Below, piece after piece: positions 3,353 through 34,189 of a DNA stretch of 42,795 nucleotides. A program made the translations under genes and the position numbers. The notes beneath the pieces were generated by a model that made no database searches, had not been told where the DNA came from, and saw only the letters and a program-made list of their open reading frames with translations. The first letter of the stretch is position 1; each line of letters begins with the position of its first letter. Origin of the DNA: a virus; IMG/VR virus record IMGVR_UViG_3300009170_000544, positions 1 to 42,795 of that record, one strand, 5' to 3'.

Positions 3353-3357
3353 TTAAT

Positions 3358-3786: not shown

Positions 3787-3815
3787 GTTTATTTAAACTT
3801 AAATAAATTAAAAAA

Positions 3816-3847: not shown

Positions 3848-3851
3848 ATTA

Positions 3852-4444: not shown

Positions 4445-4457
4445 AAATTAAAAGATT

Positions 4458-6083: not shown

Positions 6084-6092
6084 ATTTAAGTT

Positions 6093-12585: not shown

Positions 12586-12599
12586 CTTTATTATATTCA
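12568..12599 (+). promoter_or_regulatory. Probable promoter ATTGG-N19-TATATTCA
   Basis: ATTGG at 12568-12572 and TATATTCA at 12592-12599 have the 19-base spacing seen in the other promoters. The box differs from TATATTTA in one base. The ATG at 12607 follows after seven bases. It could start a second transcript for the rest of the sugar island. Confidence 0.5.
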
Positions 12600-12606
12600 T
12601 ATAATA

Positions 12607-13230: not shown

Positions 13231-13616
13231 AAAAAGTATGGGTAAATGGATCTTTTGATGTTTTGCATATTGGACATATAAAACTATTAAAATATGCTTT
13301 TTCATTAGGAAAAGTTTTTGTTGGTATAGATTCTGATAAAAGAATAAAACAACTAAAAGATAATAATAGACCTTTTAACTCAGAACAAGATAGACTTGAT
13401 TTTCTTTCTAGTATTAAATATGTTAATAAAGTAAATATATTTGACTCAGATAAAGAATTAATTAATCTAATACAATTATATCAACCTAATTATATGGTTA
13501 TAGGAAGTGATTATAAAGATAAACCCATCATAGGATCAGAATATATAGATAAAATAATATATTTTGATAGAATAAAAAATAAATCAACAACTGAAATTTT
13601 AAATTATGGAAAATAG
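13227..13616 (+). CDS. HldE C-terminal-type nucleotidyltransferase (heptose-1-phosphate adenylyltransferase-like)
   Basis: A 129-residue cytidylyltransferase-fold enzyme. NGSFDVLHIGHIKLL contains the H-x-G-H nucleotide-binding motif; IKQLKDNNRPFN, the EQDRLDFL block and the ending KSTTEIL match the adenylyltransferase half of HldE (RfaE2), which makes ADP-heptose, better than TagD-type glycerol-phosphate enzymes. The kinase half lies 12 kb downstream at 25670. No sedoheptulose isomerase, phosphatase or HldD is seen in the window, so the phage may draw on host intermediates or activate a different sugar phosphate. Confidence 0.82.
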   Translation: MKKVWVNGSFDVLHIGHIKLLKYAFSLGKVFVGIDSDKRIKQLKDNNRPFNSEQDRLDFLSSIKYVNKVNIFDSDKELINLIQLYQPNYMVIGSDYKDKPIIGSEYIDKIIYFDRIKNKSTTEILNYGK

Positions 13617-14010
13617 AAAGTATCTACCAACATTAAGTGAATTAATAGACAGATTATCAATTATACAACTAAAAGAAGTATTTATCACAGATCATAAAAC
13701 AGAATATGCTAATGAAATTGCTGATATAGTACATGATATACAATTACATTTAGATGAATGTAAAGAACCAATTACAGCTGAAACAATTCGAGCTATTATA
13801 GTTTTATCTCAAATGAATTTACATATTTGGCATAATGAATCAAATGTTAGAAGCGGAAAATCAGGACCAAATGCTTTAGCTTTAACACATGGATTAAATG
13901 GTATTCGTAACACAGCGAAAAATCAAATTCAAGAAGTAATGGGTGGTCGTAAAGATTATAAAATTGATTGTTTGGCGGCTGAATTTAAAGGCTGGGAAAT
14001 TAGTTGGTGA
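13606..14010 (+). CDS. Unknown helical protein of the sugar island
   Basis: A 134-residue helical protein. The opening LPTLSELIDRLSIIQLKEVF is a pattern I associate with unnamed small proteins inside phage and bacterial surface-sugar clusters, but no function is known to me. A conserved-looking NLHIWHNESNVRSGK segment follows. It overlaps the nucleotidyltransferase by 11 bases. A role in regulating or scaffolding the sugar enzymes is possible but not shown. Confidence 0.65.
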   Translation: MENRKYLPTLSELIDRLSIIQLKEVFITDHKTEYANEIADIVHDIQLHLDECKEPITAETIRAIIVLSQMNLHIWHNESNVRSGKSGPNALALTHGLNGIRNTAKNQIQEVMGGRKDYKIDCLAAEFKGWEISW

Positions 14011-14026
14011 TATAAAAAATATAGTT

Positions 14027-15169
14027 ATGAAAAAAATATGGTATGCTCCCAATAAATTTGAATCCTATGGGGGAGAAGAAATTAAAGCTGTAGAACAATG
14101 TCTTAGAGATGGTTGGTTAGCTGGTTTTGGTCCTCGTTCAATTGAATTTGAAGAAAAAATAGCTAAATTTTTTGGTAAAAAATATGGTGTCTTTGTTAAT
14201 TCTGGTTCATCAGCTTGTTTGTTAGCTTTAGCTAGTTTACAACTTCCTAAAGGAACTAAAGTAATTACACCAGCTTGTACATTTTCTACTACATTAGCCC
14301 CTATAATCCAATTAGGACTTATTCCTATATTTGTAGATGTAGATTTAACCACATATTGTGCTAATGTGAAGGAAGTATTAGCCGCGATTGATGATGAGGT
14401 AAAAGTGCTTATGATACCTAATTTAATAGGTAATAAACCTAATTGGAAAGCAATCAAAGATGGTTTAGCAATTATAGGAAGAGAAGATATCATCTTAATT
14501 GAAGACTCAGCTGACACAATAACACACACCCCAGAAACGGATATAGCTACAACTAGTTTCTATGCTAGCCATGTTATTACAGCTGGTGGAGCTGGAGGTA
14601 TGGTAATGTTTAATGATGAAAAATTAAGAAATGTATCATTACAATTTAGAGATTGGGGTAGGATAGGTGACAACTCTGAAGAAATGTCAGATAGATTTAA
14701 TCATAATGTAGATGGTATTCCATATGATTATAAATTTTTATATGGTGTATTAGGTTATAATATGAAATCTTCTGAAATGAATGCTGCTTTTGGTTTAGTT
14801 CAACTTGAAAGATTTAAACAATTTGAACAAATTAGACGAGCTAACATTGAACGTTATATTGAAAATCTTCAAGGAGTAGGTGACATTATATTACCTGATG
14901 ATAGTATTAAGCCTAATTGGTTAGCTATCCCACTCCAAACCGAAAAACGATATGAATTACTCCATTTCTTAGAAGAGAATAATATACAAACTAGAGTCAC
15001 ATTTGCTGGTAATGTTACACGACATCCTGTTTATAGAGAATATCTTCAAGAATTCCCCAACTCAGATACTATAATGAAAAATGGTTTTTTATTAGGAGCT
15101 CACCATGGCATGACTATTGAAGATGTTGATTATGTTTGTGACAAAATTAAAGAATTTTTTAGTAAATGA
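14027..15169 (+). CDS. DegT-fold sugar 3-dehydratase with His in place of the PLP lysine (RfbH/ColD-like)
   Basis: A 380-residue DegT/DnrJ/EryC1-fold enzyme. NSGSSACLLAL is the cofactor phosphate loop and LIEDSADT holds the PLP-contacting aspartate. At the site where aminotransferases have the Schiff-base lysine, the sequence is SFYASHVITAGGAGG: histidine replaces lysine. This swap defines the 3-dehydratases ColD and E1 (RfbH/DdhC). FRDWGR and DGIPYDYKFLYGVLGYN match RfbH closely, but the cysteines of the RfbH 2Fe-2S cluster are absent after FRDWGR, so the chemistry may be ColD-like. Expected reaction: removal of the C3 hydroxyl of a nucleotide 4-keto-6-deoxyhexose. ATG 14027 is preferred over the ATG at 13943, which would overlap the previous gene and add a non-homologous tail. 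Confidence 0.85.
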   Translation: MKKIWYAPNKFESYGGEEIKAVEQCLRDGWLAGFGPRSIEFEEKIAKFFGKKYGVFVNSGSSACLLALASLQLPKGTKVITPACTFSTTLAPIIQLGLIPIFVDVDLTTYCANVKEVLAAIDDEVKVLMIPNLIGNKPNWKAIKDGLAIIGREDIILIEDSADTITHTPETDIATTSFYASHVITAGGAGGMVMFNDEKLRNVSLQFRDWGRIGDNSEEMSDRFNHNVDGIPYDYKFLYGVLGYNMKSSEMNAAFGLVQLERFKQFEQIRRANIERYIENLQGVGDIILPDDSIKPNWLAIPLQTEKRYELLHFLEENNIQTRVTFAGNVTRHPVYREYLQEFPNSDTIMKNGFLLGAHHGMTIEDVDYVCDKIKEFFSK

Positions 15170-16116
15170 TAAAAACTGTTTATGTAACAGGTTGCTTAGG
15201 GTTTATAGGATCTTATGTAACTAGAACTTGTTTAGAAAAGGGATGGTATGTTAAAGGTGTAGATAAAATGACCTATGCCTCTAACAAACATTTACTAAAA
15301 GAATTTAATAAGTATAAAAACTTTTCATTTGTTCATTGTGACATAAATGACTTAAAATTTTTATATGATTGTGATTATGTTATCAATACAGCAGCTGAAA
15401 CTCATGTAGGTAATAGTATAGCTAATAGTGATGATTTTGTTCATTCTAATATTAATGGAGTTCATAATCTTTTAGAATTAATTAGAAATTATAGAGGTGA
15501 AAACTCAGGAAAACCTATATTTTTGCACTTCAGTACAGATGAAGTTTATGGAGACATTGAAAAAGGATCCCATACTGAAACTGATCTTCTTTATCCTAGT
15601 AACCCTTACTCAGCTACTAAAGCAGCAGCTGATCAATTAGTATTAGCTTGGGCTAGAACATATGATTTACCTTATATTATAGTTCGTCCTACTAATAATT
15701 ATGGTATAGGTCAATATGTTGAAAAACTTATACCTAAAGCTTGTAAATATTTAGGTTTAGGTAAAAAAATCCCTTTACATAATACTGGTACGCCTATTAG
15801 AAATTGGCTACATGCCCAAGATACAGCGGATGCTATTATCACTATAATTGAATCTAGGGTAACTAATGAGATATACAATATAGCTGGGGGATTTGAACAA
15901 TCTAATATTATAACAGCTAAAAAAGTTATTACAGAATATCTTGGAGATGTAGATTTTCTTAAGTACATTGATACAACTTTTAGTAGAAAAGGTCAAGATG
16001 TTAGATACGCTTTAGATGATTCTAAATTAAAAAAATTAGGATGGCAACCTAAAAAACAATTTGATCAAGAGTTAACTAATATAGTAGAACATTATAAAGA
16101 TAAATTTATATGGTAA
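15166..16116 (+). CDS. NAD-dependent sugar 4,6-dehydratase (RmlB-like)
   Basis: A 316-residue extended SDR enzyme. The dinucleotide site is VTGCLGFIGS, with Cys where Gly is usual. HFSTDEVYGD carries the Thr-Asp-Glu of the dehydratase active site, and YSATKAAAD the Tyr-x3-Lys pair. NNYGIGQYVEKLIP, IRNWLHAQD and RKGQDVRYALD match dTDP-glucose 4,6-dehydratase (RmlB) in order. Expected product: a nucleotide-bound 4-keto-6-deoxyhexose, the substrate needed by the two 3-dehydratase-like enzymes. The nucleotide (dTDP, CDP or GDP) cannot be told. The ATG overlaps the previous stop. Confidence 0.92.
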   Translation: MIKTVYVTGCLGFIGSYVTRTCLEKGWYVKGVDKMTYASNKHLLKEFNKYKNFSFVHCDINDLKFLYDCDYVINTAAETHVGNSIANSDDFVHSNINGVHNLLELIRNYRGENSGKPIFLHFSTDEVYGDIEKGSHTETDLLYPSNPYSATKAAADQLVLAWARTYDLPYIIVRPTNNYGIGQYVEKLIPKACKYLGLGKKIPLHNTGTPIRNWLHAQDTADAIITIIESRVTNEIYNIAGGFEQSNIITAKKVITEYLGDVDFLKYIDTTFSRKGQDVRYALDDSKLKKLGWQPKKQFDQELTNIVEHYKDKFIW

Positions 16117-16622
16117 AACTAATTAATGGTAGAGGTCAGCTAGGAGAAAGATTACAACATCTAACCAATATTCAAATTATATCTGATATTTCTATTTATC
16201 ATACTTGGCAAGTAACATACTTAGATAATTTAAATGTTGATAATAAGATAACACAACTTAATGAATATAATAAATTAGTTGAATTCTCAAATAAAAATCC
16301 TAACACTAAAATATTATTTATATCAACTAACTCCCAACGTAATAGTTGGTATACCTATTATAAAGAACAAGCTGAAGCTTATCTTTTAACTAATCATAAT
16401 TCTTGTCTTATCTTAAAATTTCCAACATTTATAGGTAAAGGAATATTACCTAAATTAAAAGCTGAAGAAATTGAACCATATGGTATTATGGAATTGATTA
16501 CTTTAGATAAGGTAGTAGAAACTATAAAAGAATTTATTTACCATGATGATTTAAAAAGAATATTTATTATTAAAGGTGAAAAAATAGAAGCAAAAACAGT
16601 ACTAGAAATACTTAAGATATAA
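16110..16622 (+). CDS. Short, degenerate SDR (RmlD-like)
   Basis: A 170-residue protein, about 60 percent of normal RmlD length. NGRGQLGERL resembles the N-terminal G-x-x-G-x-x-G loop. ILFISTNSQRNSWYTYYKEQAE resembles the serine and Tyr-x3-Lys region. The C-terminal substrate domain is much reduced. It overlaps its neighbours. It may be a compact reductase, an inactive partner of another SDR, or a decaying gene; the intact frame argues against decay. Confidence 0.6.
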   Translation: MVKLINGRGQLGERLQHLTNIQIISDISIYHTWQVTYLDNLNVDNKITQLNEYNKLVEFSNKNPNTKILFISTNSQRNSWYTYYKEQAEAYLLTNHNSCLILKFPTFIGKGILPKLKAEEIEPYGIMELITLDKVVETIKEFIYHDDLKRIFIIKGEKIEAKTVLEILKI

Positions 16623-17539
16623 TGGTTACAAAAATAACATACCATTTAATGCCTTGGGAAATTGACTATGCGTTAATGTCATTTACTCAATTTAAAAAAT
16701 CAAAATATTATCTTCAAAAAGGTGATAGGGTTAAAATAGATTCTTTTCTTAATTTATCTAATTATTTAATTGATTGGGATAATAGCCAATTACCCAAAGA
16801 ATTTTTTATTCAAAAATATAATGATTTAACTAATTTACTTTGTGACTATGAACACACTCCATTTATATATGAAGGAAATGAATTGTGGGGTATATTAGAT
16901 AAACAAAGAATGGCTTATGACCCTGAGATAGATTATTATATTGAACTTTGCCCTGACATGTATTTTAGTGAAACTTTACTTGTTTCTTTAATTGAAGCTG
17001 CTAAAACAGTACCTAACAAATACTTTGCAATTACACCTCAGTTATATAAAATGTGGGATTGGACTTGGGATGTATTAGTAGCTGATAGACATATGAATAT
17101 ACCTTATGACCAATGGGATAAGGCTGATTTATTTGATATTAGATGGGACTTTAAAAATGCAAATATAGAAAGACAACTTAAATCATCCCCAGTAAGTAAA
17201 TGGTGCAACTGGTTTGACTTATATAATAAAGCATTCTATGAAGAAATGATCCCAGTGCATGATGATTGGCATGGTTATGGACCTGGAGACACTTATGGAA
17301 TGATTATTTCTGAATATGCTAAAAATAAAGGTGCTGATTTCCAACAGTATATTTTAGAGGGTGAACTTATATTTGAATATCCAATTGGACCTTTAAAACA
17401 ACGTAATGTTAGTAGTGTTTATAGAGACATGATTGTAACTAAAACTATTCCTAATCAACGAACCACATTTGAAGTTAAATTTGATCAATATATTAATAAA
17501 GGTATTCAACAATTATTTGATAAAAAAATTATTCAATGA
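16622..17539 (+). CDS. Probable glycosyltransferase, GT-A-like
   Basis: A 305-residue soluble protein. YYIELCPDMYF is a D-x-D-like acidic turn in a β context, and HDDWHGYGPGDTYG looks like the C-terminal acidic/glycine block of GT-A enzymes. Many W, Y and H residues in the middle suggest a carbohydrate-binding surface. No family could be fixed by eye. The ATG shares one base with the previous stop and the stop overlaps the next gene by four bases. Confidence 0.55.
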   Translation: MVTKITYHLMPWEIDYALMSFTQFKKSKYYLQKGDRVKIDSFLNLSNYLIDWDNSQLPKEFFIQKYNDLTNLLCDYEHTPFIYEGNELWGILDKQRMAYDPEIDYYIELCPDMYFSETLLVSLIEAAKTVPNKYFAITPQLYKMWDWTWDVLVADRHMNIPYDQWDKADLFDIRWDFKNANIERQLKSSPVSKWCNWFDLYNKAFYEEMIPVHDDWHGYGPGDTYGMIISEYAKNKGADFQQYILEGELIFEYPIGPLKQRNVSSVYRDMIVTKTIPNQRTTFEVKFDQYINKGIQQLFDKKIIQ

Positions 17540-18405
17540 AAATATTTTCTAATTTTAGACCTGAGAATAGTTTAGTTTATGATGGGTTAAAAGCTTTAAA
17601 TAAACCTATAACTTTTTTTTATGATTATATTCCTCAAAATTTAGAGCAACTTCAAATTAATCCTTATAATTTTATTATGCTTCATGAACCTGATGAATTT
17701 TTTGGAATGCACACTTGGGTTAAACAAAATGCTCATTTGTTTACAGGTATATTAACATGGAATAAAGAATTATTAAATATGCTTTCAAATGCTATATTGT
17801 TTCATCATATTGGAGAAGGAGGTTGTGGAATGGTTGAAAATAATTATATAGAGACATTTAATGAAGAACATCCAAATAAGTCATTTTACATCAGTTATTT
17901 AAGTGGGGCTAAATCATTAGTTCAAGGACATAAATTAAGACAAGAGATATATAAATTAGAAAATCAAATTAATATACCTAAAAAATGGTTTTATACATTA
18001 AATGACTTTAATAAAGAAGAATTTAAAAAAGGAGGTATTGGTCGTCCTGATAATCATTGGCTCTCTAAAAAAATATGTTATATTGATGTAATGTTTCATA
18101 TTGGAGTAGAAAATGTTAAATATAATAATTGGTATACTGAAAAAATAACAGATGCTTTTGCTACTAAAACTCTTCCTATATATTGGGGATGTCCTAATCT
18201 AGAAGATTTAGGATATGATGAAAGAGGTATTATTAGGTTCAATTCTACTAAAGAATTAGTAGATATAGTTAACTCACTAACCCCAGAAATATATTATGAA
18301 AAATTACCATATATGGAGTATAATTGTGAAATAATTAAATATCATAGAATAAAAGATAAATTAGAAGAATTTTTTAAAGAAATTATAAAATTAAATAATA
18401 TATGA
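17536..18405 (+). CDS. GT10 fucosyltransferase-like glycosyltransferase
   Basis: A 289-residue protein. The C-terminal half carries the donor-site motif of GT10 α-1,3-fucosyltransferases: FHIGVENVKYNNWYTEKIT then ATKTLPIYWGCPNLEDL. GT10 enzymes use GDP-fucose, a GDP-6-deoxy sugar; a GDP-linked 3,6-dideoxy sugar would be chemically close. The N-terminal acceptor domain is short and diverged. No membrane segment, so cytoplasmic. Overlaps both neighbours by four bases. Confidence 0.8.
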   Translation: MKIFSNFRPENSLVYDGLKALNKPITFFYDYIPQNLEQLQINPYNFIMLHEPDEFFGMHTWVKQNAHLFTGILTWNKELLNMLSNAILFHHIGEGGCGMVENNYIETFNEEHPNKSFYISYLSGAKSLVQGHKLRQEIYKLENQINIPKKWFYTLNDFNKEEFKKGGIGRPDNHWLSKKICYIDVMFHIGVENVKYNNWYTEKITDAFATKTLPIYWGCPNLEDLGYDERGIIRFNSTKELVDIVNSLTPEIYYEKLPYMEYNCEIIKYHRIKDKLEEFFKEIIKLNNI

Positions 18406-19340
18406 AAAAAGTATTAATAACCGGAGGAGCTGGCTATTTAGGGTCAGTTCTAACAGAAGTATTATTAAATAAAAATTATCATGTGACTGTACTAGATAAT
18501 TTAATTTATAAACAAACATCAATTGCCCCATTTGCATACCATCCAAACTTTAATTTTATTTTAGGTGATGTGACTAATGAACCAACTCTAAAGTCATTAG
18601 TTGAATCCCATGACATTATTATCCCACTAGCTGCTATTGTAGGCATGCCAGCTTGTAAAGCTCAACCTGAATTAACAATAAAAGTTAATTATGAACAAGT
18701 TAAAAATATTACTAAATGGATAACTAAAGAGCAAAAAATTATTATTCCTAATACAAATAGTCAATATGGTTCTTCAACTGAAATTATAACTGAAGATTCA
18801 CCATTTAAACCACTTTCATTATACGCTGAGACAAAATGTAACGCTGAAAAAGCAGTGTTAGATTCTGGTAATGGTATTGTATTAAGATTAGCCACAGTAT
18901 TTGGTATGTCCTACAGAATGAGAATGGATTTATTAGTTCAAGATTTTGTATACAAAGCAATAACTGATGGCTACTTAGTATTATTTGAATCTCATTTTGT
19001 TCGTAATTACATCCATGTTAGAGATATTGCCAACACATTTTTATTTATGATTGAAAATTATGATAAATGCAATAATAACGCGTTTAATGTTGGTTTAACT
19101 TCTGCTAATTGTACTAAATTAGAACTAGCTAACAAAATTAAACAATTTATTCCTGATCTAGTAATTGTAGAAAATAATTTTAAACAAGACTTTGATCAAA
19201 GAAATTATATAGTTTCTAATAAAAAATTGGAATCTCAAGGATGGTTTCCTACATTCACATTAGAAAATGGTATTCAAGAATTAATTCAAGGTTATCAATT
19301 AATCCAAAAATTTAAAAATAAAGATTTTACAAATTTATAA
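18402..19340 (+). CDS. NAD-dependent epimerase/reductase (extended SDR)
   Basis: A 312-residue extended SDR. ITGGAGYLGS is an intact dinucleotide loop, PNTNSQYGSS the serine/threonine strand, and YAETKCNAEK the Tyr-x3-Lys pair. VRNYIHVRDIA and NVGL are the usual C-terminal blocks, and NKKLESQGWFPTFTLENGI is the substrate-domain end. Expected role: epimerisation or 4-keto reduction of a nucleotide sugar, a likely last step after dehydration. Substrate not determinable. Confidence 0.85.
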   Translation: MKKVLITGGAGYLGSVLTEVLLNKNYHVTVLDNLIYKQTSIAPFAYHPNFNFILGDVTNEPTLKSLVESHDIIIPLAAIVGMPACKAQPELTIKVNYEQVKNITKWITKEQKIIIPNTNSQYGSSTEIITEDSPFKPLSLYAETKCNAEKAVLDSGNGIVLRLATVFGMSYRMRMDLLVQDFVYKAITDGYLVLFESHFVRNYIHVRDIANTFLFMIENYDKCNNNAFNVGLTSANCTKLELANKIKQFIPDLVIVENNFKQDFDQRNYIVSNKKLESQGWFPTFTLENGIQELIQGYQLIQKFKNKDFTNL

Positions 19341-20299
19341 TGAGAATATTAGTAATATATAATATTTGTGGGATTAAATTTGATAACTTAGAGATGTGGA
19401 AAAACCATCTTCAAGATATCTTAAACCAAGAATACCCAAACCTTATTGTCGCCGTCTCAGGATGTATTATATCTAATAGAAGTAAAGTTGAATTAGAAAA
19501 ACTTAAAGAAAAATATAATAATATAATTTTTAATTGGATTGAAGATAAATTACCTGTTAATGTAACTTTTAATCATACAGCTCAAACATGTACCAAACAG
19601 TTAGGAGAATTTGATGGTTATCTTTATATTGCTTCAGATGTTAAATTTGGTGATGATGTTAAAATAATTAAAAAATTAACTTATTTACATCAAAATAGTA
19701 ATAGTGTTATGACCTATGCTTTAGTAGATAATGATCATGGTTTAGATGGTTGGTATGCTGATGTTTGGGATGAACTAGATAAAATGTTAGAAACAGATCA
19801 TTTCTGTATCAATATAGGAAGAACAGCTAACATGCATGTTATACTATTTGATAAAATAATTTACCAAACATTTAATAACAAAATAATCCCAGATATATTC
19901 GCTACTCATTATACCGAAACAACTTACAGTTATATAGCGGCGGCATTAAATAAAAAATATGTTGTACATAATAAAAATATTATGCTAGAACATATTGGAT
20001 TTGCTGATGGTCATAGTGTAGGCTTTATAGATGAAATAAAATATAATGATGACATTGCTTGGAAACATTTATTTAAATCTAAAATACCAGCTGAAGAACG
20101 ACTATTAAATGATGAAGCTAAAATGAGTGGGTTTGGATATGAAGAGCATAAAGGTTTATTAATCCATGATGAATCTATGTATGATGAAAATGAAAGCCAT
20201 ACTAACCCAGAAAAACTACTTGATTTTTTAAAGAAAGCCATTTATCTTTCAGATGAAGAATTTAACTATAAAACAATTAATTATAAATTAACAATATGA
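19340..20299 (+). CDS. Probable glycosyltransferase, GT-A-like
   Basis: A 319-residue protein. MRILVIYNICG and LIVAVSGC are early strands of an α/β fold, YLYIASDVKFG a D-x-D-like motif, and LEHIGFADGHS supplies a late histidine as in metal-dependent GT-A enzymes. The last 60 residues are charged. It overlaps its neighbours and precedes the radical SAM gene. Family not identified with certainty. Confidence 0.55.
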   Translation: MRILVIYNICGIKFDNLEMWKNHLQDILNQEYPNLIVAVSGCIISNRSKVELEKLKEKYNNIIFNWIEDKLPVNVTFNHTAQTCTKQLGEFDGYLYIASDVKFGDDVKIIKKLTYLHQNSNSVMTYALVDNDHGLDGWYADVWDELDKMLETDHFCINIGRTANMHVILFDKIIYQTFNNKIIPDIFATHYTETTYSYIAAALNKKYVVHNKNIMLEHIGFADGHSVGFIDEIKYNDDIAWKHLFKSKIPAEERLLNDEAKMSGFGYEEHKGLLIHDESMYDENESHTNPEKLLDFLKKAIYLSDEEFNYKTINYKLTI

Positions 20300-21831
20300 T
20301 AGATATTTTATTTATATCACCAGGTAATGCTAATGGCATTTATCAAAATTTAGCTGATGATTATGCAGCAATTGAGCCACCAACCTGGGCCCTATTACTA
20401 GCTCAATCATGCAGATCAGTAGGTTATACTGTTGCTCTTATAGATGCCAACGCAGAACAATTAGATAAAGAGGAAATAGAAAAAAGAGTAAAAGAATTAA
20501 ATCCACGTTTAATCTGTTTTGTAGTTTATGGGCAAAATGTAAACGCCGGTACTGTTAATATGGGAGGGGCCACTTACTTATCCAAACATTTGAAACAAGT
20601 GGGTATTATAACTCCAATAGCTTGCTTAGGTTCATATATTCAAGCTGTTCCTATTAAAACATTAAATGAAGAACCATCTATTGATTTTGGATTCACGAAT
20701 GAAGGAGTATATGCTTTAAGAAATGTTTTAGCTGAACCTAATATAGATGTTAATAATTTAGGTCATATCAAAGGTTTAGTTTGGAGAGAAAATGGTGTCT
20801 CAAAAATTAACCCATCTGAAAAAGTAGTCCCTAATGATAAAATGGATCTTGATCTCCCGGGATATGCTTGGGATTTACTTCCAATAAAAGAAAAACCTCT
20901 TGATCTGTATCGAGCACCTATGTGGCATGCTGAATATGACCAAGAAAAACGTTCTCCTTACGCTGCTATTCAAACATCATTAGGGTGTCAATTTGGGTGT
21001 GATTTTTGTATGATCAATATTTTAAATCGAAATGATGAAGATGAGATAGGAGTTGCTGGGAATTATAGTTTAATGCGTCATTGGTCACCTGAATTTATTA
21101 TTAAAGAATTTGATAAATTAGTTGAGATGGGAGTTTATACTATTAAAATTACTGATGAAATGTTTTTACTAAATCGTAAATACTATGTCCCATTATGTGA
21201 AATGCTTAAAGATAGAGGGTATGGTGGCAAGCTAAGAATGTGGGCTTATTCAAGAGTAGATACTGTACGTCGTCCTGATTTGCTTAAATTAGTTAGAGAA
21301 GCAGGCATTAAATGGTTAGCTTTAGGTATTGAAAGTGGTGATAAAACAGTTCGATTAGAAGTATCTAAAGGTCGATTTGAAGATGTTGATATTAATAAAG
21401 TAATTGATCAAGTACATGAAGCTGATATTGAAGTAATGGCAAATTATATTTTTGGCCTACCTGGAGATACTAAAGAAAGTATGCAAAAAACCTTGGATCT
21501 GTCAAAAGAACTTTGTACATTTGGATGGAATGCATATGCCACGATGGCCCTACCAGGCAGTAAATTATATAAAGAAGCCCTAATGAAAGGAACTCCATTA
21601 CCAGATACATATGAAGGTTATTCATTTCATGGTTATGATACATTACCATTACCAACAGAAACATTAACTGCTGCTGAAATATTAGAATTTAGAGATAAAG
21701 CATTTGATGATTATCATTCTTATCCTAAATTTTTAAAAAAAGTAAAAGACAAATTTGGACAGGTAGCTATTGATAATATTAATGAAATGTTAAAAGTTAA
21801 ATTAAAAAGAAAAATATTAGAAAATGAATAA
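20296..21831 (+). CDS. Radical SAM protein with N-terminal B12-binding-like domain
   Basis: A 511-residue protein. Residues 1-150 form a Rossmann-like domain resembling the cobalamin-binding part of B12 radical SAM enzymes (EPPTWALLLAQ, VALIDANAE, IACLGSY), but the D-x-H-x-x-G base-off motif is not evident. The core has the 4Fe-4S ligand motif GCQFGCDFCMI (C-x3-C-x2-C), IKITDEMF, and ALGIESGDKTV, a SAM-contacting block. NYIFGLPGDTKE is typical of this family. Expected chemistry: radical C-methylation or rearrangement, making 5'-deoxyadenosine. Its place just before the TPP pair and the second 3-dehydratase suggests it acts on a sugar intermediate. Confidence 0.88.
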   Translation: MIDILFISPGNANGIYQNLADDYAAIEPPTWALLLAQSCRSVGYTVALIDANAEQLDKEEIEKRVKELNPRLICFVVYGQNVNAGTVNMGGATYLSKHLKQVGIITPIACLGSYIQAVPIKTLNEEPSIDFGFTNEGVYALRNVLAEPNIDVNNLGHIKGLVWRENGVSKINPSEKVVPNDKMDLDLPGYAWDLLPIKEKPLDLYRAPMWHAEYDQEKRSPYAAIQTSLGCQFGCDFCMINILNRNDEDEIGVAGNYSLMRHWSPEFIIKEFDKLVEMGVYTIKITDEMFLLNRKYYVPLCEMLKDRGYGGKLRMWAYSRVDTVRRPDLLKLVREAGIKWLALGIESGDKTVRLEVSKGRFEDVDINKVIDQVHEADIEVMANYIFGLPGDTKESMQKTLDLSKELCTFGWNAYATMALPGSKLYKEALMKGTPLPDTYEGYSFHGYDTLPLPTETLTAAEILEFRDKAFDDYHSYPKFLKKVKDKFGQVAIDNINEMLKVKLKRKILENE

Positions 21832-22429
21832 TCTTTTAACTAAAGAGCAACTGATTGCTTTTGAAGATGACATAGCAGATTGTTTTAATAATGCTATGAT
21901 CAAAGCTCCTATCCATTTATATTATGGAAATGAAGAGCAAATGATTGATATATTTAAAAAAGTACAACCTGAGGATTGGGTATTTTGTACCTGGAGATCA
22001 CATTATCAGTGTTTGCTTAAAGGTGTACCTCAAGAACAAATAAAAAAAGATATACTAGATGGTAAATCAATTACACTTTGTTACCCTGAATATAATATAT
22101 ATTCCTCAGCTATTGTAACAGGTAATATTCCTATCGCTACTGGTACATCGTTAGATATTAAACGTAAAGGTCAATCTAACCATGTTTGGTGCTTTGTAGG
22201 TGATATGACATCTGAAACAGGTACCTTTTTTGAAAATTGGAAATACGCTATCAATCATGATTTGCCTATTACTTATATAATTGAAGATAATAGTAAATCT
22301 GTTTGTACAATTACTAAAGAAGTATGGAATAATGATCTATATTTTAAAAATGAAACAAGAAAAATAATTTATTATCAATATGAAACCAAATATCCTCACG
22401 CTGGTGCAGGTAAACGAATCCAATTTTAA
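21824..22429 (+). CDS. TPP-dependent enzyme, α chain (pyrophosphate-binding domain)
   Basis: A 201-residue protein like a shortened pyruvate dehydrogenase E1α. VFCTWRSHYQCLLKG matches the early E1α block (normally Y-R-x-H). The TPP site is FVGDMTSETGTFFENW followed 18 residues later by IIEDNS: the G-D-x(25-30)-N magnesium/TPP motif. It is much shorter than E1α (about 320-360). Its partner follows after three bases. Paired small TPP subunits occur in ComDE-type decarboxylases and in the avilamycin AviB1/B2 proteins, which add a two-carbon branch to a sugar. Expected role here: decarboxylative acyl transfer. Confidence 0.83.
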   Translation: MNNLLTKEQLIAFEDDIADCFNNAMIKAPIHLYYGNEEQMIDIFKKVQPEDWVFCTWRSHYQCLLKGVPQEQIKKDILDGKSITLCYPEYNIYSSAIVTGNIPIATGTSLDIKRKGQSNHVWCFVGDMTSETGTFFENWKYAINHDLPITYIIEDNSKSVCTITKEVWNNDLYFKNETRKIIYYQYETKYPHAGAGKRIQF

Positions 22430-22431
22430 TC

Positions 22432-22968
22432 ATGAAATATTTTGATGAATTAAAACGTTCAATGGATTGGCTTAATGAAAAGCCAGACACATTCTTCTTA
22501 GGACAAGCAGTAACATATGCGGGTACAGCTATGACTAATACTGTTAAAGATGTAAATCCATCTAAAATGATAGAAATGCCTGTAAATGAGGATATGCAAA
22601 TGGGAATGACATTAGGAATGGCCTTGAATAGTACTGTGCCTATTTCAATTTATCCACGTTGGAATTTTTTATTGTTAGCCGCTAATCAGATAGTTAACCA
22701 TTTAGACAAAATTAAAATAATGTCAGGTGGTGGGTTTCAACCTAAAGTAATTATTAGAACATCAATAGGCTCACAACGTCCACTTCACCCACAACATCAA
22801 CATATTGCTGATTTTACAGCTGGGTTTAAAGCAATGTGTGATACAGTTGATATTATTCGATTAGATGAACCACATCAAATCTTTGAATCCTTCCAATACG
22901 CTTATGAAAGAACAGATGGTCGTTCTACTATTTTAGTTGAATGGGGAGATTATTACGGAGAAAAATAA
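22432..22968 (+). CDS. TPP-dependent enzyme, β chain (pyrimidine-binding domain)
   Basis: A 178-residue protein matching the pyrimidine domain of E1β. MIEMPVNEDMQMGMTLG corresponds to the E1β segment with the catalytic glutamate that activates the TPP aminopyrimidine, and that Glu is present. ANQIVNHLDKI and GSQRPLHPQHQHI match the following E1β blocks. The C-terminal transketolase domain of E1β is missing. With the α chain it would make a minimal TPP enzyme. The gene ends 13 bases before the ColD-like gene. Confidence 0.82.
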   Translation: MKYFDELKRSMDWLNEKPDTFFLGQAVTYAGTAMTNTVKDVNPSKMIEMPVNEDMQMGMTLGMALNSTVPISIYPRWNFLLLAANQIVNHLDKIKIMSGGGFQPKVIIRTSIGSQRPLHPQHQHIADFTAGFKAMCDTVDIIRLDEPHQIFESFQYAYERTDGRSTILVEWGDYYGEK

Positions 22969-22981
22969 ATAAAAAAGCAAT

Positions 22982-24157
22982 ATGAATAATTTTTATTTAC
23001 CATTAATGAGTGATAATATTGATAGAGAAGATATTAATGCTCTTGTTGATTTTTTAAATCAAAATCCAATCCCAAAATTAACTAACGGACCTAAAGTAGT
23101 TGAATTTGAAAAAGCATGGGGTGAGTGGTTGGGGACCAAATACAATCTAATGCTCAATTCAGGAGCATCTGCTAACGAATTAACAATGTTGGCTTTAAAT
23201 TATATCCATGGTGAAGGTGAAATTATAGTCCCACCATTAACTTGGATCTCAGATGTATCATCAGTATTATTTGCTGGTTTTAAACCTGTATTTGTAGATA
23301 TTAATTTAAAAAACTTATCATTTGATATTGACAAATTAAAATTGGCAATTACACCTAATACTAAAGCAATATTCCTTACCCATGTACTTGGTATTAACGG
23401 ATTGACAGAGGAATTAACCCAGTTATGTGAAGATAATAATATTTTACTTATTGAAGATGTTTGTGAGTCTCATGGTGTAACTTTTAAAGGACAAAAAGTA
23501 GGTTCAATTGGATTTGCTTCTAATTTTAGTTTTTATTTTGCACACCATATGTCAACAATTGAAGGAGGTATGATTTGTACAAATGATGAACATTTTTACC
23601 AAGTTTGTAGAGCATTACGTTCCCATGGCATGACTAGAGAAATAACTAATGAAGATTTTAAACACAAAATAATCCAAGAAAACCCAGATTTAAACCCAGA
23701 CTTTATTTTCTTACATCCTGCTCATAATTTTAGAAGCACCGAACTGAATGCTATTATTGGGCTATCCCAAATTAAAAAATTAGATTCAAATAATATTCAT
23801 AGAGTAAATAATTTTAAATATTTTATGGAACGTTTAGATTCAAATAAATACCACACAGATATTGAGTTAGAAGGACAATGTAACTATGCTTTTATTGTGA
23901 TATTAAAAGAACCTTCATTTGAATTGAGAGATAAAGTAGAAAAAACACTCAACGAAAAGGGAATTGAATTTAGAAGAGGATTATCTGGAGGAGGAAACCA
24001 GTTAAGACAACCTTATTTTAAAAAGAATTATAATATTAATTATGATGATTTTAAAAATATAGATCATGTTCATCATTTTAGTTGGTATGTAGGCAATTAT
24101 CCCACATTGGAAAAAGAAAAAATTGATACTTTAATTAATACTCTTAATAAGATATGA
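22982..24157 (+). CDS. DegT-fold sugar 3-dehydratase with His in place of the PLP lysine (ColD-like)
   Basis: A 391-residue enzyme. LNSGASANELTML is the cofactor phosphate loop and LLIEDVCESHG holds the PLP aspartate. The catalytic site reads FSFYFAHHMSTIEGGM, where the first His takes the place of the aminotransferase lysine, as in ColD (GDP-4-keto-6-deoxymannose 3-dehydratase). The following ALRSHGMTRE and FRSTELNAIIG are family blocks. No iron-sulfur cysteines are seen, again as in ColD. This is the second such enzyme in the island, with only low similarity to the one at 14027, so they probably have different substrates. It lies directly after the TPP pair. Confidence 0.87.
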   Translation: MNNFYLPLMSDNIDREDINALVDFLNQNPIPKLTNGPKVVEFEKAWGEWLGTKYNLMLNSGASANELTMLALNYIHGEGEIIVPPLTWISDVSSVLFAGFKPVFVDINLKNLSFDIDKLKLAITPNTKAIFLTHVLGINGLTEELTQLCEDNNILLIEDVCESHGVTFKGQKVGSIGFASNFSFYFAHHMSTIEGGMICTNDEHFYQVCRALRSHGMTREITNEDFKHKIIQENPDLNPDFIFLHPAHNFRSTELNAIIGLSQIKKLDSNNIHRVNNFKYFMERLDSNKYHTDIELEGQCNYAFIVILKEPSFELRDKVEKTLNEKGIEFRRGLSGGGNQLRQPYFKKNYNINYDDFKNIDHVHHFSWYVGNYPTLEKEKIDTLINTLNKI

Positions 24158-24636
24158 ATCTAACTGATGTTAAAATTTTAGAGACAGACTCATTTAAAGA
24201 TGAAAGAGGTGAACTTTGGACTATTTGGAATAAAAAAGAATTTAGTCCAAAATTAAATTTTAATCATGATAAAATAGCTGTATCTAAAAAACATGTTTTA
24301 AGAGGAATACATGGAGACTTTAAATCTTGGAAATTAATAACATGTCTATTAGGAGAAATATTCTTAGTAGTTGTGGATCCTAAAACATTAGAACATATTT
24401 CTTTAATATTAAATGACCAAAATAAATTATCAGTTCTAGCCCCCCCAGGATTAGGAAATGGTCATCTTGTTTTATCAGACAAAGCTGTTTTTTATTATAA
24501 ATGGGCATATAAAGGAGATTATCCTGATGTAGATGATCAATTTAGTTTAAAATGGGATGATCCTAAATTAAATATAACTTGGCCTATAACATTTCCTATA
24601 TTATCATTACGAGACCAAAACGCTAAATCATTATGA
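24154..24636 (+). CDS. dTDP-4-dehydrorhamnose 3,5-epimerase-like cupin (RmlC-like)
   Basis: A 160-residue cupin. FKDERGELWTIWNK is the RmlC N-terminal substrate block, VLRGIHGDFKSWKL contains the catalytic histidine and the substrate-binding lysine, and GEIFLVVVDPK is the following strand pair. GLGNGHLVLSDKAVFYYKW matches the second half of the cupin including the tyrosine region. It is slightly shorter than RmlC (about 180). Expected role: epimerisation at C3/C5 of a 4-keto sugar made by the RmlB-like enzyme. Overlaps both neighbours by four bases. Confidence 0.85.
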   Translation: MNLTDVKILETDSFKDERGELWTIWNKKEFSPKLNFNHDKIAVSKKHVLRGIHGDFKSWKLITCLLGEIFLVVVDPKTLEHISLILNDQNKLSVLAPPGLGNGHLVLSDKAVFYYKWAYKGDYPDVDDQFSLKWDDPKLNITWPITFPILSLRDQNAKSL

Positions 24637-25127
24637 ATTTTTTAGAACAAATAAAATATAATATTAAATCAATCCAAGATTTTCCCCAACCTGGTGTTGT
24701 ATTTAAGGATATCCAACCTATATTAGAAAATCCTACTTTATTCCCCCATGCTATATTTAGTATGTCTAAATTAACCAAGACCCCAGATTATTATATTGGA
24801 ATTGAATCTAGAGGTTTTATATTTGCAACAGCTTTAGCTAATTATCTTAAATGTGGTATTAAATTAATACGAAAAAAAAATAAACTTCCCCCTCCGGTTT
24901 CATCCATATCATACCAATTAGAATATGGAGAAGATACTTTAGAAATTCAACCTGGAACTGGAAATGTAGTAATTGTTGATGATGTTTATGCTACAGGAGG
25001 TACTATGAACGCTGCTGTAGAATTATGTCAAAAAGCAGGATATAATGTGGTTGGAAAATTAGTGTTCATTGATTTAGTAACATTACATGGTCCTATTGAT
25101 GTTAAAAGTTTAATTCAATATGAATAA
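24633..25127 (+). CDS. apt: Adenine phosphoribosyltransferase
   Basis: A 164-residue type I phosphoribosyltransferase close in length to bacterial Apt (about 175). IQDFPQPGVVFKDIQPILE is the characteristic Apt N-terminus, IESRGFIFATALA the adenine/pyrophosphate loop, RKKNKLPPPV the flexible loop, YQLEYGEDTLEI a family block, and VVIVDDVYATGGT the PRPP-binding site. Reaction: adenine plus PRPP gives AMP. The next gene, a nucleosidase that frees adenine, overlaps by eight bases, so the two act in sequence. Confidence 0.93.
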   Translation: MNFLEQIKYNIKSIQDFPQPGVVFKDIQPILENPTLFPHAIFSMSKLTKTPDYYIGIESRGFIFATALANYLKCGIKLIRKKNKLPPPVSSISYQLEYGEDTLEIQPGTGNVVIVDDVYATGGTMNAAVELCQKAGYNVVGKLVFIDLVTLHGPIDVKSLIQYE

Positions 25128-25707
25128 TAAAGTATTTATAGTGGCTGTAGCTGATGAAGTAGATATTCAAGGAAAAATACTAGATATACCTGTTATATTT
25201 AGTGGAGTGGGTAAAATAAATGCTACTATAGCAGCGACAATGGCTTTTAATTTTGGTTATAAAGAAATTATTAATATTGGGTCTTGTGGTTCCCTTAATC
25301 ATTCTGTTGGAGATATAATTAAAATAGGACAAACATTCCAGGATATAGATGCTACTCCTTTAGATAATTATGGTTCTACTCCTTTTGAGTCTAATAGTAA
25401 ACAAATTGTTTTAGATATAAAATCTCCAACTACTTGTTTTACCACAGATTACTTTTTTGATAAAAGTCAATTACCAAAATACTCCTCTTATTATATAGAC
25501 ATGATAAAAAAATGTGATGTATTTGATATGGAATGTTTCGCTTTAGCTAAAGTATGTAAAAGGTTTAATCTAAAATTTAGTTCATATAAATGGATTTCTG
25601 ATGAAGGAAATCATGATAATTGGAAAGAAAATTGTAAAATAGGATTTGAAAAAATAAAAGTTATACTTGATGAACAATTTAAAAAAGAAAGAGTTTCAAC
25701 ATTTTAA
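25120..25707 (+). CDS. MTA/SAH nucleosidase-like (PNP/UDP fold)
   Basis: A 195-residue protein of the nucleoside phosphorylase fold. SGVGKINATIA is the phosphate/nucleophile-side loop, NIGSCGSLNHSVGDI the conserved G-x-x-G block, FDMECFALAKV the Met-Glu motif that binds the ribose, and WISDEG the catalytic Ser-Asp. It is shorter than MtnN (about 230). Such enzymes cleave methylthioadenosine, S-adenosylhomocysteine and 5'-deoxyadenosine to adenine. Next to Apt and in a cluster with radical SAM and methyltransferase genes, recycling of SAM by-products is the best reading. Confidence 0.8.
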   Translation: MNNKVFIVAVADEVDIQGKILDIPVIFSGVGKINATIAATMAFNFGYKEIINIGSCGSLNHSVGDIIKIGQTFQDIDATPLDNYGSTPFESNSKQIVLDIKSPTTCFTTDYFFDKSQLPKYSSYYIDMIKKCDVFDMECFALAKVCKRFNLKFSSYKWISDEGNHDNWKENCKIGFEKIKVILDEQFKKERVSTF

Positions 25708-26455
25708 TATATTGGTGATAGGAGATGATGGGGTTGATGAATTTCTATATGGAACTGTTACTAGACTAGCTCCTGAAGCTCCTGTTCCTGTTTTTAATCC
25801 TTTATCTAAAACTACAAATGCCGGAATGGCGGGGAATGTGGTAGCTAATTTAAAAGCTTTAGGAGTTAATGTATATTTTATAAACAATCTTCCTCCTACC
25901 CCTACCAAAACCCGATATGTTGATGATAGATCAGGCCAAATACTACTCCGAGTTGATATAAATGATCAAATTAAGAGAATAGACCCTTTAATTTTAAAAG
26001 AAATAACTAATAATTATTATAATGGTGTAAATATAGATGCCATTATAATTAGTGATTATAATAAAGGATTTTTAGAAGAAGATGATATAAAATTTATTTG
26101 TGAAAATAATTTAAATATTTTTATAGATACTAAAAAAGTTTTAGGGAAATGGTGTTCACAAGCATCCTTTATCAAAATAAACCATGTTGAATATCAACAT
26201 AGTGACTATACTATACACGAATTAGATATTGAAGATAAATTAATTATTACTTTATCAAATAAAGGATGCCAGCATAAAAATAAAATATACCCAGTTAAAA
26301 AAGTCTCTATTAAAGATGTATCAGGAGCAGGAGATACTTTCCTTTCAGGATTAGTTGTGGAATATATTTTAACTAAAGATATAGAGAAGGCTATTATTTT
26401 TGCTCAACAATGTGCTACAACTGTAGTTCAAAAATTAGGGGTATCAACAATATAA
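25670..26455 (+). CDS. PfkB-type sugar kinase, HldE N-terminal-like, compact
   Basis: A 261-residue kinase. NILVIGDDGVDEFLYGTVTR and APEAPVPVF match the N-terminus of heptose-7-phosphate kinase (HldE-N/RfaE1). GMAGNVVANLKALG is the sugar-binding loop, TPTKTRYV and QILLRVD follow, and DVSGAGDTFLSG holds the catalytic aspartate. Between NVYFINN and TPTKTR about 35 residues usual in this family (the G-D-D-x-x-G block) are missing, giving a protein shorter than the usual 310. ATG 25670 is chosen over the TTG three bases upstream. It overlaps the nucleosidase by 38 bases. Its adenylyltransferase partner is at 13227. Confidence 0.82.
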   Translation: MNNLKKKEFQHFNILVIGDDGVDEFLYGTVTRLAPEAPVPVFNPLSKTTNAGMAGNVVANLKALGVNVYFINNLPPTPTKTRYVDDRSGQILLRVDINDQIKRIDPLILKEITNNYYNGVNIDAIIISDYNKGFLEEDDIKFICENNLNIFIDTKKVLGKWCSQASFIKINHVEYQHSDYTIHELDIEDKLIITLSNKGCQHKNKIYPVKKVSIKDVSGAGDTFLSGLVVEYILTKDIEKAIIFAQQCATTVVQKLGVSTI

Positions 26456-26460
26456 ATAAT

Positions 26461-27255
26461 ATGAAAAAATCATTTGAAATAATTGAAACTCAATTTGGAA
26501 ATTTTTTAGTTAATGAATATGACTTAATTGGAAAATTTATAAAAGATCACCGTTTTTGGGAGTATCATTTATATGAATTTTATTCACAAGTATTAACACC
26601 TGAGAGTCATTGCATTGACGCTGGAGCTAATATAGGATTTCACACCATCCAATTTGGTAAATTATCTAAAAAAGTATATGCTTTTGAACCTCAATCTTTG
26701 GTTTATAATCAATTATGCGCCAATATTTTATTTAATGATTTAAATAACACTATAATCCCATATAGATTAGCTTTAGGAGATAAATTTGATAAACAACAAC
26801 TTTGGAATATTGAACATGAAGATTGGGTGGGTAATGAAATTTATAACTGGGGAGGAAGAGGAATCATTCAAGATAATTATGGGGGAGAAAGGGCTACAAA
26901 TAATAAGTTTAGAGAACATGATATTATAGAGATTATTCCTTTAGACTCACTTCAAATTACTCAATGTGATTTAATCAAAATAGATGTTCAAGGATATGAG
27001 TATTTAACTTTTCTAGGAGCTCAAAATATTCTTCAAACTTATAAACCCATTATTCTCTTAGAAAATCCCATCAGTAATGATGAATGTGATACTCAGTCTA
27101 AAAATTTTCTTAAAGCTATGAATTATGAAATTTATAGATTTGGAACAGGAAACTGTGAGGATTGTATTGTGATTCATCCTGAAAATAATAATTATGCCAA
27201 AACCTTAGAAATTATTAAATCAATCTCAGAAAAATATAACATTAAAATAAACTAA
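26461..27255 (+). CDS. FkbM-type SAM-dependent methyltransferase
   Basis: A 264-residue class I methyltransferase. CIDAGANIGFHTIQF is SAM motif I, VYAFEPQSLVYNQL motif II, and IIPLDSL with IKIDVQGYE the typical FkbM block, followed by a late strand ILLEN. FkbM enzymes mostly O-methylate sugars. ATG 26461 starts five bases after the kinase stop; the longer frame from 26410 would overlap the kinase without adding a domain. Expected role: decoration of a sugar hydroxyl in the island. Confidence 0.9.
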   Translation: MKKSFEIIETQFGNFLVNEYDLIGKFIKDHRFWEYHLYEFYSQVLTPESHCIDAGANIGFHTIQFGKLSKKVYAFEPQSLVYNQLCANILFNDLNNTIIPYRLALGDKFDKQQLWNIEHEDWVGNEIYNWGGRGIIQDNYGGERATNNKFREHDIIEIIPLDSLQITQCDLIKIDVQGYEYLTFLGAQNILQTYKPIILLENPISNDECDTQSKNFLKAMNYEIYRFGTGNCEDCIVIHPENNNYAKTLEIIKSISEKYNIKIN

Positions 27256-32084: not shown

Positions 32085-32804
32085 ATGAGCATGAAAATGC
32101 TCTGGCCCTTAATAGTTAGCTTATTTATAGTTGCTTGCAATAAACCACCTGATGAGGTTGTTGTAGATGATAAGTTAAGTCTTATACAAGAGTATGAACC
32201 GAGTATAACTGAGGAAATTTATATTAAAACTAAGGGTAGTAAATTAGGTTCCACTAAGGGACCTAATTTTCTCTTTATTATACCTGATACTTCATACACA
32301 TCAGCTGATTTATTAGATTTTTTAGCTGTTTATGGTACTGTTGTACCTGATGTCGCTCCTGACTTTATGAACTATTATCAAGATATAGGCTCAGGTCATG
32401 TTGGAGCTAAATTAGATAACTTAACAACTCCTGAAGATACTACAAGGATTTATGAGTGGTATTCTAATGGTGATTTAATTTATGTAGGTTATAATCTACC
32501 ATTAGTTGAGGTCTCATCTCAACTTGAATGTGAAGGATTAATGATGATTAAACTTAAAGTCATTGATCCTGCTACTGAAGCTGAATATGAAAAAGAACAA
32601 TGGTCATATATTGAATATCTTTTTATCCCTGACTCATTAGCTTGTGAATGTCAAGACTGTCCTAATTATTGGGACGTTTTCCCTATTCCAACTACTCCTT
32701 CTCCCTATCAATATCAAACTAAATATGCTAAATGGGACTTGGACCAAAATAATTTAATCAATATAAATGATTTATTAATATTATTATCTTATTACAGTGA
32801 ATAA
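32085..32804 (+). CDS. Lipoprotein with a C-terminal dockerin-like repeat
   Basis: A 239-residue protein with a lipoprotein signal: a hydrophobic stretch then IVAC, with Cys18 as the lipid site. The mature part is acidic and has a cluster of cysteines (CECQDC). The last residues, WDLDQNNLININDLLILLSYY, resemble one calcium-binding repeat of a type I dockerin (D-x-D-x-N-x-x-x-x-x-D-x-L-x-L-L), with one acidic ligand changed. The next gene, a secreted protease, has two better repeats. Expected location: host cell envelope. It begins six bases after the RadA-like gene. Confidence 0.78.
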   Translation: MSMKMLWPLIVSLFIVACNKPPDEVVVDDKLSLIQEYEPSITEEIYIKTKGSKLGSTKGPNFLFIIPDTSYTSADLLDFLAVYGTVVPDVAPDFMNYYQDIGSGHVGAKLDNLTTPEDTTRIYEWYSNGDLIYVGYNLPLVEVSSQLECEGLMMIKLKVIDPATEAEYEKEQWSYIEYLFIPDSLACECQDCPNYWDVFPIPTTPSPYQYQTKYAKWDLDQNNLININDLLILLSYYSE

Positions 32805-32839: not shown

Positions 32840-34189
32840 ATGAAAAAATTAGCTTTATTATTAAGTTTTCTCTCCTTAGTGATCCTCCTACCAGCTCAAG
32901 AACCTATGAGTTGTGCCATTCTAGGTGATACTACCAATGTGTTACCTATGGGATTCCTAAAAAACAGAAACAAAAACCGTAGTAACACCCCTAAAGAAAT
33001 CCCCATAGTAGTCCATATAGTTTACACAGATGCTATAGCTAACACCTATATCCCAGAAGAAGTTATACAACCTGCTATAGATCAATTAAATGTTGACTTT
33101 GCAGGAACAGGTCTTTCTTTTTATTTAGTAGCTTATGACTATACTGATTTATCTACCTACTCATGGCATAATGCTTATGTGAGTGGACAAGTCCACTTTC
33201 CTAGTTATCAAACTCAAGCAACAGAATTAGCAAATGATATATCTTGGGATATAGCTGAATATTGTAATGTTTATGTTATACCTAAAATGTATGATACAAT
33301 ATTGGGATATGCTTATGTTGGTTATGGTCCTGATAATGCTGATGATGGTGTTTGGGTATTAAGTAGATCATTTGGGGTTGGAGACTGGCCCCATTTAACT
33401 CCATCATTAAATGAAAATGAAACATTAACTCATGAGATAGGCCACTATTGTGGTTTATTCCATACATTCCATGGTTACCCTCAATTCTGCGGTACACAAG
33501 ACCCAGATATACCTTGTGAATATGAAGGAGATTACGTTTGTGACACACCCCCAACTAAAGCAAGTTCTGGGTGCCCTGGAGTACTTGGTTACCATTGCCC
33601 CACAACAATATATGATGGGGCTTATTTTAACGCCCGTAACCATATGGATTATGGCACCCAAGTCTGTAGAGACGAATTTACACAGGGTCAAATAGATAGA
33701 ATGCACGCTATGCTTGAATATCAAAGATATGAATTGTTTAGTGATGATACTGCTACACCTTTCTGCCCCGGAGACTTTAATGGAGATGGTAATATAGGAA
33801 CAGCTGATTTATTAGTTATACTATCTAATTATGGTTGTATAGGTTGTGGTCCATCACAAGGTGATGCTACTTTAGACTATAGAGTTACTGTTAATGATTT
33901 AAATTGGGTATTAGCTAATTGGGGTGAAATTTGTGGAGATGGAATAGGAATGTTAGAAGGAGATAATGTTAGTTTACCACAACCACCTTCAAAACCAAAA
34001 CAAACTATTCCTTATAAGACATTAGCTGCTATATTAGTTCAAGAACCAAGACCTATTTTAGAAGTAAATTATTATGATATTGTAGGTAGAAAGGTAAACA
34101 TAGTTGAAGTAGCAAGTAAACATGGGATATATGTTGTTGAAATAATACTTGAAGATGGAAATAGGATAGTTTTAAAAACAATCTTATAA
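32840..34189 (+). CDS. Secreted M43-type metalloprotease with dockerin repeats and T9SS-like C-terminal domain
   Basis: A 449-residue protein. Residues 1-20 are a signal peptide ending near LLPAQ. The zinc site is HEIGHYCGLFH at residues 198-208 and the downstream NHMDYG is the Met-turn; the CDTPP, CRDEFT and GQIDRM blocks are typical of M43 (pappalysin/cytophagalysin) proteases. Residues about 312-365 hold two dockerin-like repeats, DFNGDGNIGTADLLVILSNYG and a second ending NDLNWVLANWG. The last 75 residues (NYYDIVGRKVN, then GIYVVEIILEDG) match the type A sorting domain that sends proteins through the Bacteroidota type IX system. Expected role: cleavage of proteins outside the host cell. 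The gene is intact. Confidence 0.9.
   Translation: MKKLALLLSFLSLVILLPAQEPMSCAILGDTTNVLPMGFLKNRNKNRSNTPKEIPIVVHIVYTDAIANTYIPEEVIQPAIDQLNVDFAGTGLSFYLVAYDYTDLSTYSWHNAYVSGQVHFPSYQTQATELANDISWDIAEYCNVYVIPKMYDTILGYAYVGYGPDNADDGVWVLSRSFGVGDWPHLTPSLNENETLTHEIGHYCGLFHTFHGYPQFCGTQDPDIPCEYEGDYVCDTPPTKASSGCPGVLGYHCPTTIYDGAYFNARNHMDYGTQVCRDEFTQGQIDRMHAMLEYQRYELFSDDTATPFCPGDFNGDGNIGTADLLVILSNYGCIGCGPSQGDATLDYRVTVNDLNWVLANWGEICGDGIGMLEGDNVSLPQPPSKPKQTIPYKTLAAILVQEPRPILEVNYYDIVGRKVNIVEVASKHGIYVVEIILEDGNRIVLKTIL

Follow-up and report, generated by a model that had tools for sequence, protein, structure and literature searches.

Why would a phage carry a gene for a secreted metalloprotease, and does it use the type IX secretion system (T9SS) of its host to bring that protease to the outside of the cell? 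The question is raised by a 42,795-base stretch of DNA (hereafter the window), which is the linear IMG/VR virus record IMGVR_UViG_3300009170_000544. A reading made from the sequence alone had pointed to one gene whose product would consist of a signal peptide, an M43 domain, two dockerin-like repeats and a C-terminal tail with the motifs NYYDIVGRKV and GIYVVEI. Inspection of the open reading frame (ORF) confirmed this order. The features considered below are as follows.

32085-32804, plus strand: lipoprotein gene (lipobox IVAC, cluster c14) with one C-terminal dockerin-like half repeat (32727-32801)
32840-34189, plus strand: M43 (pappalysin) metalloprotease gene, 449 aa (ORF call; PF05572, E 2.5e-18; AlphaFold pLDDT 82.9; Foldseek matches to ulilysin/mirolysin)
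32840-32899, plus strand: predicted Sec signal peptide, aa 1-20, MKKLALLLSFLSLVILLPAQ, cleaved at its end (sequence inspection; Ala19-Gln20 invariant in 15 phage sequences)
32912-32914, plus strand: Cys25, candidate cysteine-switch residue of the pro-segment, compare mirolysin Cys23 (invariant in aligned sets)
32993-33739, plus strand: M43 catalytic domain, aa 52-300 (PF05572; PDB sequence matches; AlphaFold; Foldseek)
33431-33463, plus strand: zinc-binding motif HEIGHYCGLFH, aa 198-208 (sequence)
33638-33652, plus strand: Met-turn NHMDY, aa 267-271 (sequence; alignment of viral relatives)
33764-33937, plus strand: two Cys-rich dockerin-like repeats (Ca-binding loop and helix), aa 309-366 (sequence; predicted helices 321-329 and 351-359)
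34052-34186, plus strand: short CTD (mini-CTD) resembling the C-terminal half of a T9SS type A sorting domain, aa 405-449 (hhalign; marine-tail HMM; strands)
34121-34186, plus strand: last 22 residues, HGIYVVEIILEDGNRIVLKTIL, equivalent of the published minimal T9SS signal with GxYVV and terminal K (sequence; PMC5445135)

The protein belongs to the M43 family and its active site is intact. The Peptidase_M43 model PF05572 matched with 66.9 bits against a gathering cut-off of 23, and the HExGHYxGLxH motif was intact in all viral relatives covering that region. Sequence matches in the PDB were ulilysin (2.3e-15), PAPP-A/A2 and mirolysin. AlphaFold, given 85 aligned sequences from phages and bacteria, produced a model with a mean pLDDT of 82.9, mostly above 90 in the catalytic domain, and Foldseek matched it to ulilysin (E 2.7e-14, TM-score (target) 0.70), as expected of a pappalysin fold. 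The proposed identity as a secreted M43 protease is thus supported by the family model, the zinc motif and the fold match, export being predicted. The protein shares with ulilysin and mirolysin the HExxHxxGxxH-type motif, the Met-turn, the fold, the pro-segment cysteine and the conserved disulfide cysteines, and mirolysin belongs to the T9SS cargo, its CTD being of a special type. Unlike these enzymes, it is encoded by a phage, is only about 26% identical to them, contains a pair of dockerin-like repeats plus a short tail, and carries Gln at the position of Asp289. In mirolysin, Asp289 sets the preference for basic residues (S1' Arg/Lys; PMC6949598). The correspondence with Gln274 of the window protein was obtained by counting from the Met-turn; Gln was also present in the two nearest relatives, and Asp or Glu in most relatives.

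Upstream of the catalytic domain, a hydrophobic N-terminus ending in AQ and followed by EP is predicted, from inspection and conservation, to be a Sec signal. Cleavage at AQ is typical of Bacteroidota. The cysteine that follows shortly after was invariant in the aligned sets; it lies within SCAILG in the window and within RCGT in the long marine forms L053 and L057, like the Cys-Gly motif of mirolysin. Since the pro-segment cysteine of mirolysin blocks the zinc (PMC6949598), the window protease may well, by analogy, have a cysteine switch as well.

The pattern of this ORF is more than a product of chance, given its conservation at 77-80% identity in loci L002 and L003, the low dN/dS, the presence of relatives at 66 viral loci and the confident fold. 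Over the whole gene the dN/dS was about 0.12-0.15, and in the tail, where computable, it stayed below 0.3, indicating purifying selection. The gene resides in a phage, as the sequence-only reading had assumed. The window carries genes for a family B DNA polymerase (polB, split into two ORFs), a clamp loader, GroEL, tRNAs and an endolysin/transglycosylase-like protein. Models of phage sheath, Gp23 and terminase had no matches within the window fragment, so its phage status rests on polB, the clamp loader, the other phage genes and the IMG/VR classification. The two polymerase ORFs overlap (205-1677 and 1674-2603) and cover phrog_262 positions 99-568 and 565-844. A long block at 9412-27255 contains glycosyltransferase, aminotransferase, epimerase-like and B12-radical SAM genes and is probably a surface-sugar pathway carried by the phage.

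To place the gene among its relatives, viral and bacterial collections were searched. In IMG/VR, M43 relatives were found at 66 loci on contigs of up to 270 kb, so that the gene is indeed present in related phages. Patterns of the close family detected no close copy among 84,980 bacterial genomes, and a wider alignment scan of bacterial genomes returned 80 distant M43 loci, mostly in Bacteroidota and only about 30% identical to the window protein. A tree was drawn from 43 viral and 80 bacterial sequences, 123 rows in all; its deepest forks are open and its bacterial rows were selected by pattern. It needs only 2 label changes, against 35 expected with shuffled labels. Judged from these sequences, the viral M43s are separate from the bacterial ones, a single origin being left unproven. 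The INPHARED search gave a single weak match, MT837139, an unannotated 7.6-kb faecal clone.

Whether the protease is a type IX cargo depends on its tail, which had been described as a type IX-like sorting domain. At curated thresholds this description failed: TIGR04183 did not match the window protein even at E 10, and NF033708 matched the tail at E 0.085 with 12.8 bits, far below its cut-off of 40. When whole records were searched with TIGR04183, the best matches within records G003 and G015 were M43 tails, again below cut-off. The absence of a curated match by itself speaks against the description; what overturns it is solely the evidence from profile-profile comparison and intermediate sequences. 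With an HMM of 39 bacterial T9SS tails, the window tail scored 9.8 bits, a value reached by none of 500 shuffles, and the tails of CTD-less relatives scored below 0. Alignment with hhalign of ten viral tails, chosen because their proteins carry tails, to 21 bacterial type A domains gave 90.9% and a pairwise E-value of 1.2e-6. When about 3,350 C-termini (all ORFs of the fetched loci) were searched with an HMM made from distant marine phage tails only, the window tail came up at E 2.4e-5, and the next, non-viral matches were mainly tails of secreted Bacteroidota proteins, M43 or other. On this sequence evidence, the relationship of the tail to T9SS type A sorting domains is distant yet significant.

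The tail has the C-terminal place, the GxYVV-type strand, the terminal strand with K and the predicted beta structure of a type A domain (TIGR04183, Por_Secre_tail). It differs in being only about 45 residues long, below the curated cut-off and devoid of the N-terminal half with the PNP motif; one of the two K of KxxxK is present. AlphaFold predicted strands at 406-412, 430-437 and 442-448, with a pLDDT of about 75-92 by ten-residue blocks, and HGIYVVEIILEDGNRIVLKTIL covers the last two of them. The last ~22 CTD residues were reported to be sufficient for secretion in P. gingivalis (PMC5445135). The mini-tail was also kept in distant phage relatives, in lineages about 30% identical.

Genuine type IX cargo is encoded by related phages. 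Of 18 phage records, 5 had matches to PF13585, the type B signal, that exceeded the cut-off, and the 14 control genomes had none; TIGR04131 likewise passed its cut-off in L057, L156 and L157, which confirms type B cargo there. The M43 gene of L057 and L061 runs directly into a type B gene: its stop codon meets the start of the latter, and the two overlap or abut. The gene row of the phage contig L057 (8359-13308) comprises a fasciclin protein with the same mini-CTD, a QueE-like gene, the M43 gene and a CHU_C/type B protein. Loci L156 and L034 belong to one 152-kb record, which has the c14 lipoprotein gene and other genes in common with the window. The L156 row (617-6179; record G003, 119-131 kb) begins with an M43-like protease that has a mini-CTD (TIGR03952, E 2.7e-14). 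Another mini-CTD protein, of 229 aa, comes next, then a lipoprotein and finally a type B protein of 712 aa; the genes for these three have overlapping ends, and the row as a whole likely encodes type IX cargo. Two L156 proteins that were outside the training set matched the marine-tail HMM (E 1.1e-11 and 0.0027). An M43 gene and two type B signals also occur together on the 270-kb record of L056, a true large phage as judged from its T4-like Gp23 and terminase. Two uncultured phage records, LR745206.1 (635 kb) and LR756502.1 (642 kb), match the tail of the L057 type B cargo protein.

The tail is not a family-wide trait. Roughly three quarters of the related loci lack a T9SS-like tail, and most freshwater relatives have a signal peptide and end soon after the second dockerin-like repeat, without CTD. 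In about 28 viral loci, many of them near copies and therefore representing few independent events, a holin gene (phrog_3427, E 5.1e-21) precedes M43 with a gap of 0-18 bp or an overlap, and many of these loci also have a giant LPD38 protein alongside. This linkage suggests an action at the envelope near lysis. It supports a different explanation, according to which the enzyme is a lysis-stage protease of the periplasm or outer membrane that helps holin and endolysin, in a spanin-like manner or by digesting envelope proteins, and the tail is secondary; the signal peptide and missing CTD of the holin-linked proteins agree with it. Against it, the gene adjoins a lipoprotein gene and not a holin gene in the window and its nearest kin, endolysin candidates of the window being found only at 35510 and 41902. 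The tails of CTD-bearing lineages are moreover conserved under selection, and the holin adjacency is concentrated in related genomes. We regard this explanation as unlikely, if the most serious of the competitors. The T4 late promoter TATAAATA occurred 12 times against 12.35 expected, and this count, being close to expectation, is uninformative on timing.

It is improbable, in our estimate, that the tail is a remnant or a structural cap, left after a bacterial M43 with a sorting domain was acquired and the shortened domain ceased to work as a signal. The tail is indeed half a CTD, under all curated cut-offs, and is absent from most relatives, which either lost it or never had it; but the same short form recurs in lineages about 30% identical and in the fasciclin and 229-aa proteins of other phages, its dN/dS is below 0.3, and what has been kept is the minimal signal known from published work (PMC5445135). 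A role in nutrition or competition, in which the protease would free peptides or harm grazers and other microbes during the life of the infected cell, seems more doubtful still. Bacterial M43 relatives are secreted degradative enzymes, and such roles were proposed for phage T9SS cargo by the Cryophage authors (PMC7468147), but no linkage to uptake genes was seen and the holin linkage of the relatives points to the end of infection. The architecture of a Bacteroidota secreted protease could also mean that host DNA was misbinned or misassembled into a phage contig, for which we see hardly any room: phage genes flank the gene in independent assemblies from many samples, gene order is conserved, no bacterial genome has a close copy, and the bacterial relatives, only ~30% identical, form separate branches.

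We therefore lean, with restrained confidence, towards a secreted pappalysin-type zinc protease that acts on the outside or in the envelope of the phage's own Bacteroidota host and gets there through its T9SS mini-CTD. Most likely, judging from the tail sequence, the reduced type IX tag is used in the window lineage. The use of the host type IX system put forward by the sequence-only reading is thus supported as far as the remote tail homology goes and does not extend to the family. As most relatives are tail-less, the family can do without outer-membrane passage by T9SS, and the holin linkage of tail-less relatives implies that this route is limited to some lineages. For export, activation, substrates, timing, benefit and host, we infer the following course, in which the presence of a T9SS in the host is assumed. 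The protease would be translated during infection, exported by Sec through its signal peptide and cleaved after AQ. It would fold in the periplasm as a latent zymogen, with Cys25 of the short pro-segment blocking the zinc. The host type IX system would then recognise the mini-CTD and pass the protein across the outer membrane or anchor it at the surface, where, once activated outside, it would cleave cell-surface proteins. The likeliest gain would be a late removal of surface receptors or adhesins, by which rivals would be excluded and progeny would not be trapped on cells or debris. This benefit is the most attractive one because gld/spr mutations, in T9SS/gliding genes, give phage resistance in Flavobacterium columnare (PMC9233685).

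Phage cargo for T9SS has been known as a class since 2020, when an endoglucanase, a GH39 protein and a PA14 protein with type A tags were reported in Cryophage and called unique by its authors (PMC7468147); T9SS-tagged ORFs near BACON proteins were described in gut phages (PMC6949934). The window protein resembles this cargo as the product of a phage gene with a T9SS-type tag and presumed use of the host system. It differs from Cryophage cargo in its metalloprotease family and reduced tag, and relatives have type B cargo beside M43. An M43-like ulilysin of the giant virus Tupanvirus (A0A6N1NN82) has the same fold and family but comes from a eukaryotic virus, without T9SS context. Papers that combine M43 or dockerin with phage were sought and nothing relevant was found, and the pappalysin family, the mini-CTD and the link to a lysis cassette appear to be new. 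If our reading is true, phages alter the surface of the infected cell by way of the host's type IX machine, and their cargo here is a protease in place of the mostly carbohydrate-active cargo reported before. As T9SS/gliding genes are tied to Flavobacterium phage entry (PMC9233685), a protease sent through the same machine would be a testable receptor-destroying enzyme. Work on how little is needed for a T9SS signal would gain a natural test case in the reduced tail, and the coupling to holin suggests that a protease takes part in the lysis of Bacteroidota. A broader scheme can be offered tentatively: Bacteroidota phages may possess dedicated type IX cargo rows in which a latent pappalysin with a 22-45-residue tag serves as surface receptor-destroying enzyme, and another branch may have lost the tag and made the protease a third, holin-coupled element of the lysis cassette.

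The family also shows variation in gene number and neighbourhood. A second, diverged M43 protease of about 375 aa, without tail, is encoded at L002:8587-9720, L003:8831-9964 and L034:19391-20512; it is in tandem with the first in L002 and L003 and is missing at that place in the window. Three tandem M43 genes, some with short DxxGRE-type tail ends, were found in L086, L098 and L119, which are contigs of marine Flavobacteriales MAGs. A GroES or GroEL gene lies 19-35 bp downstream of M43 in 18 loci (L016-L020, L022, L024, L028, L029, L031, L036, L040, L042, L046-L049 and L052).

Of the dockerin repeats claimed from the sequence, two Cys-rich dockerin-like repeats are present, but no curated dockerin model passes on the window protein. 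Repeat 1, GDFNGDGNIGTADLL, fits the dockerin pattern of Ca-loop and helix, repeat 2 is degenerate, and two helices are predicted by the model. The dockerin type I model PF00404 had no match on the window protein and stayed below cut-off on the relative L057 (E 0.0014, 19.2 bits against a gathering value of 22.9). Cohesin (PF00963) was not detected at E 0.1 in 16 phage records, a search that covered phage proteins. A cellulosome-like assembly through the dockerins was considered and rejected as unsupported. The repeat pair was kept across viral family members. The neighbouring c14 lipoprotein is likewise a conserved companion of M43, occurring in the window, L002, L003, L033 and L034; its gene adjoins M43 in the window and lies one gene apart in L002 and L003.
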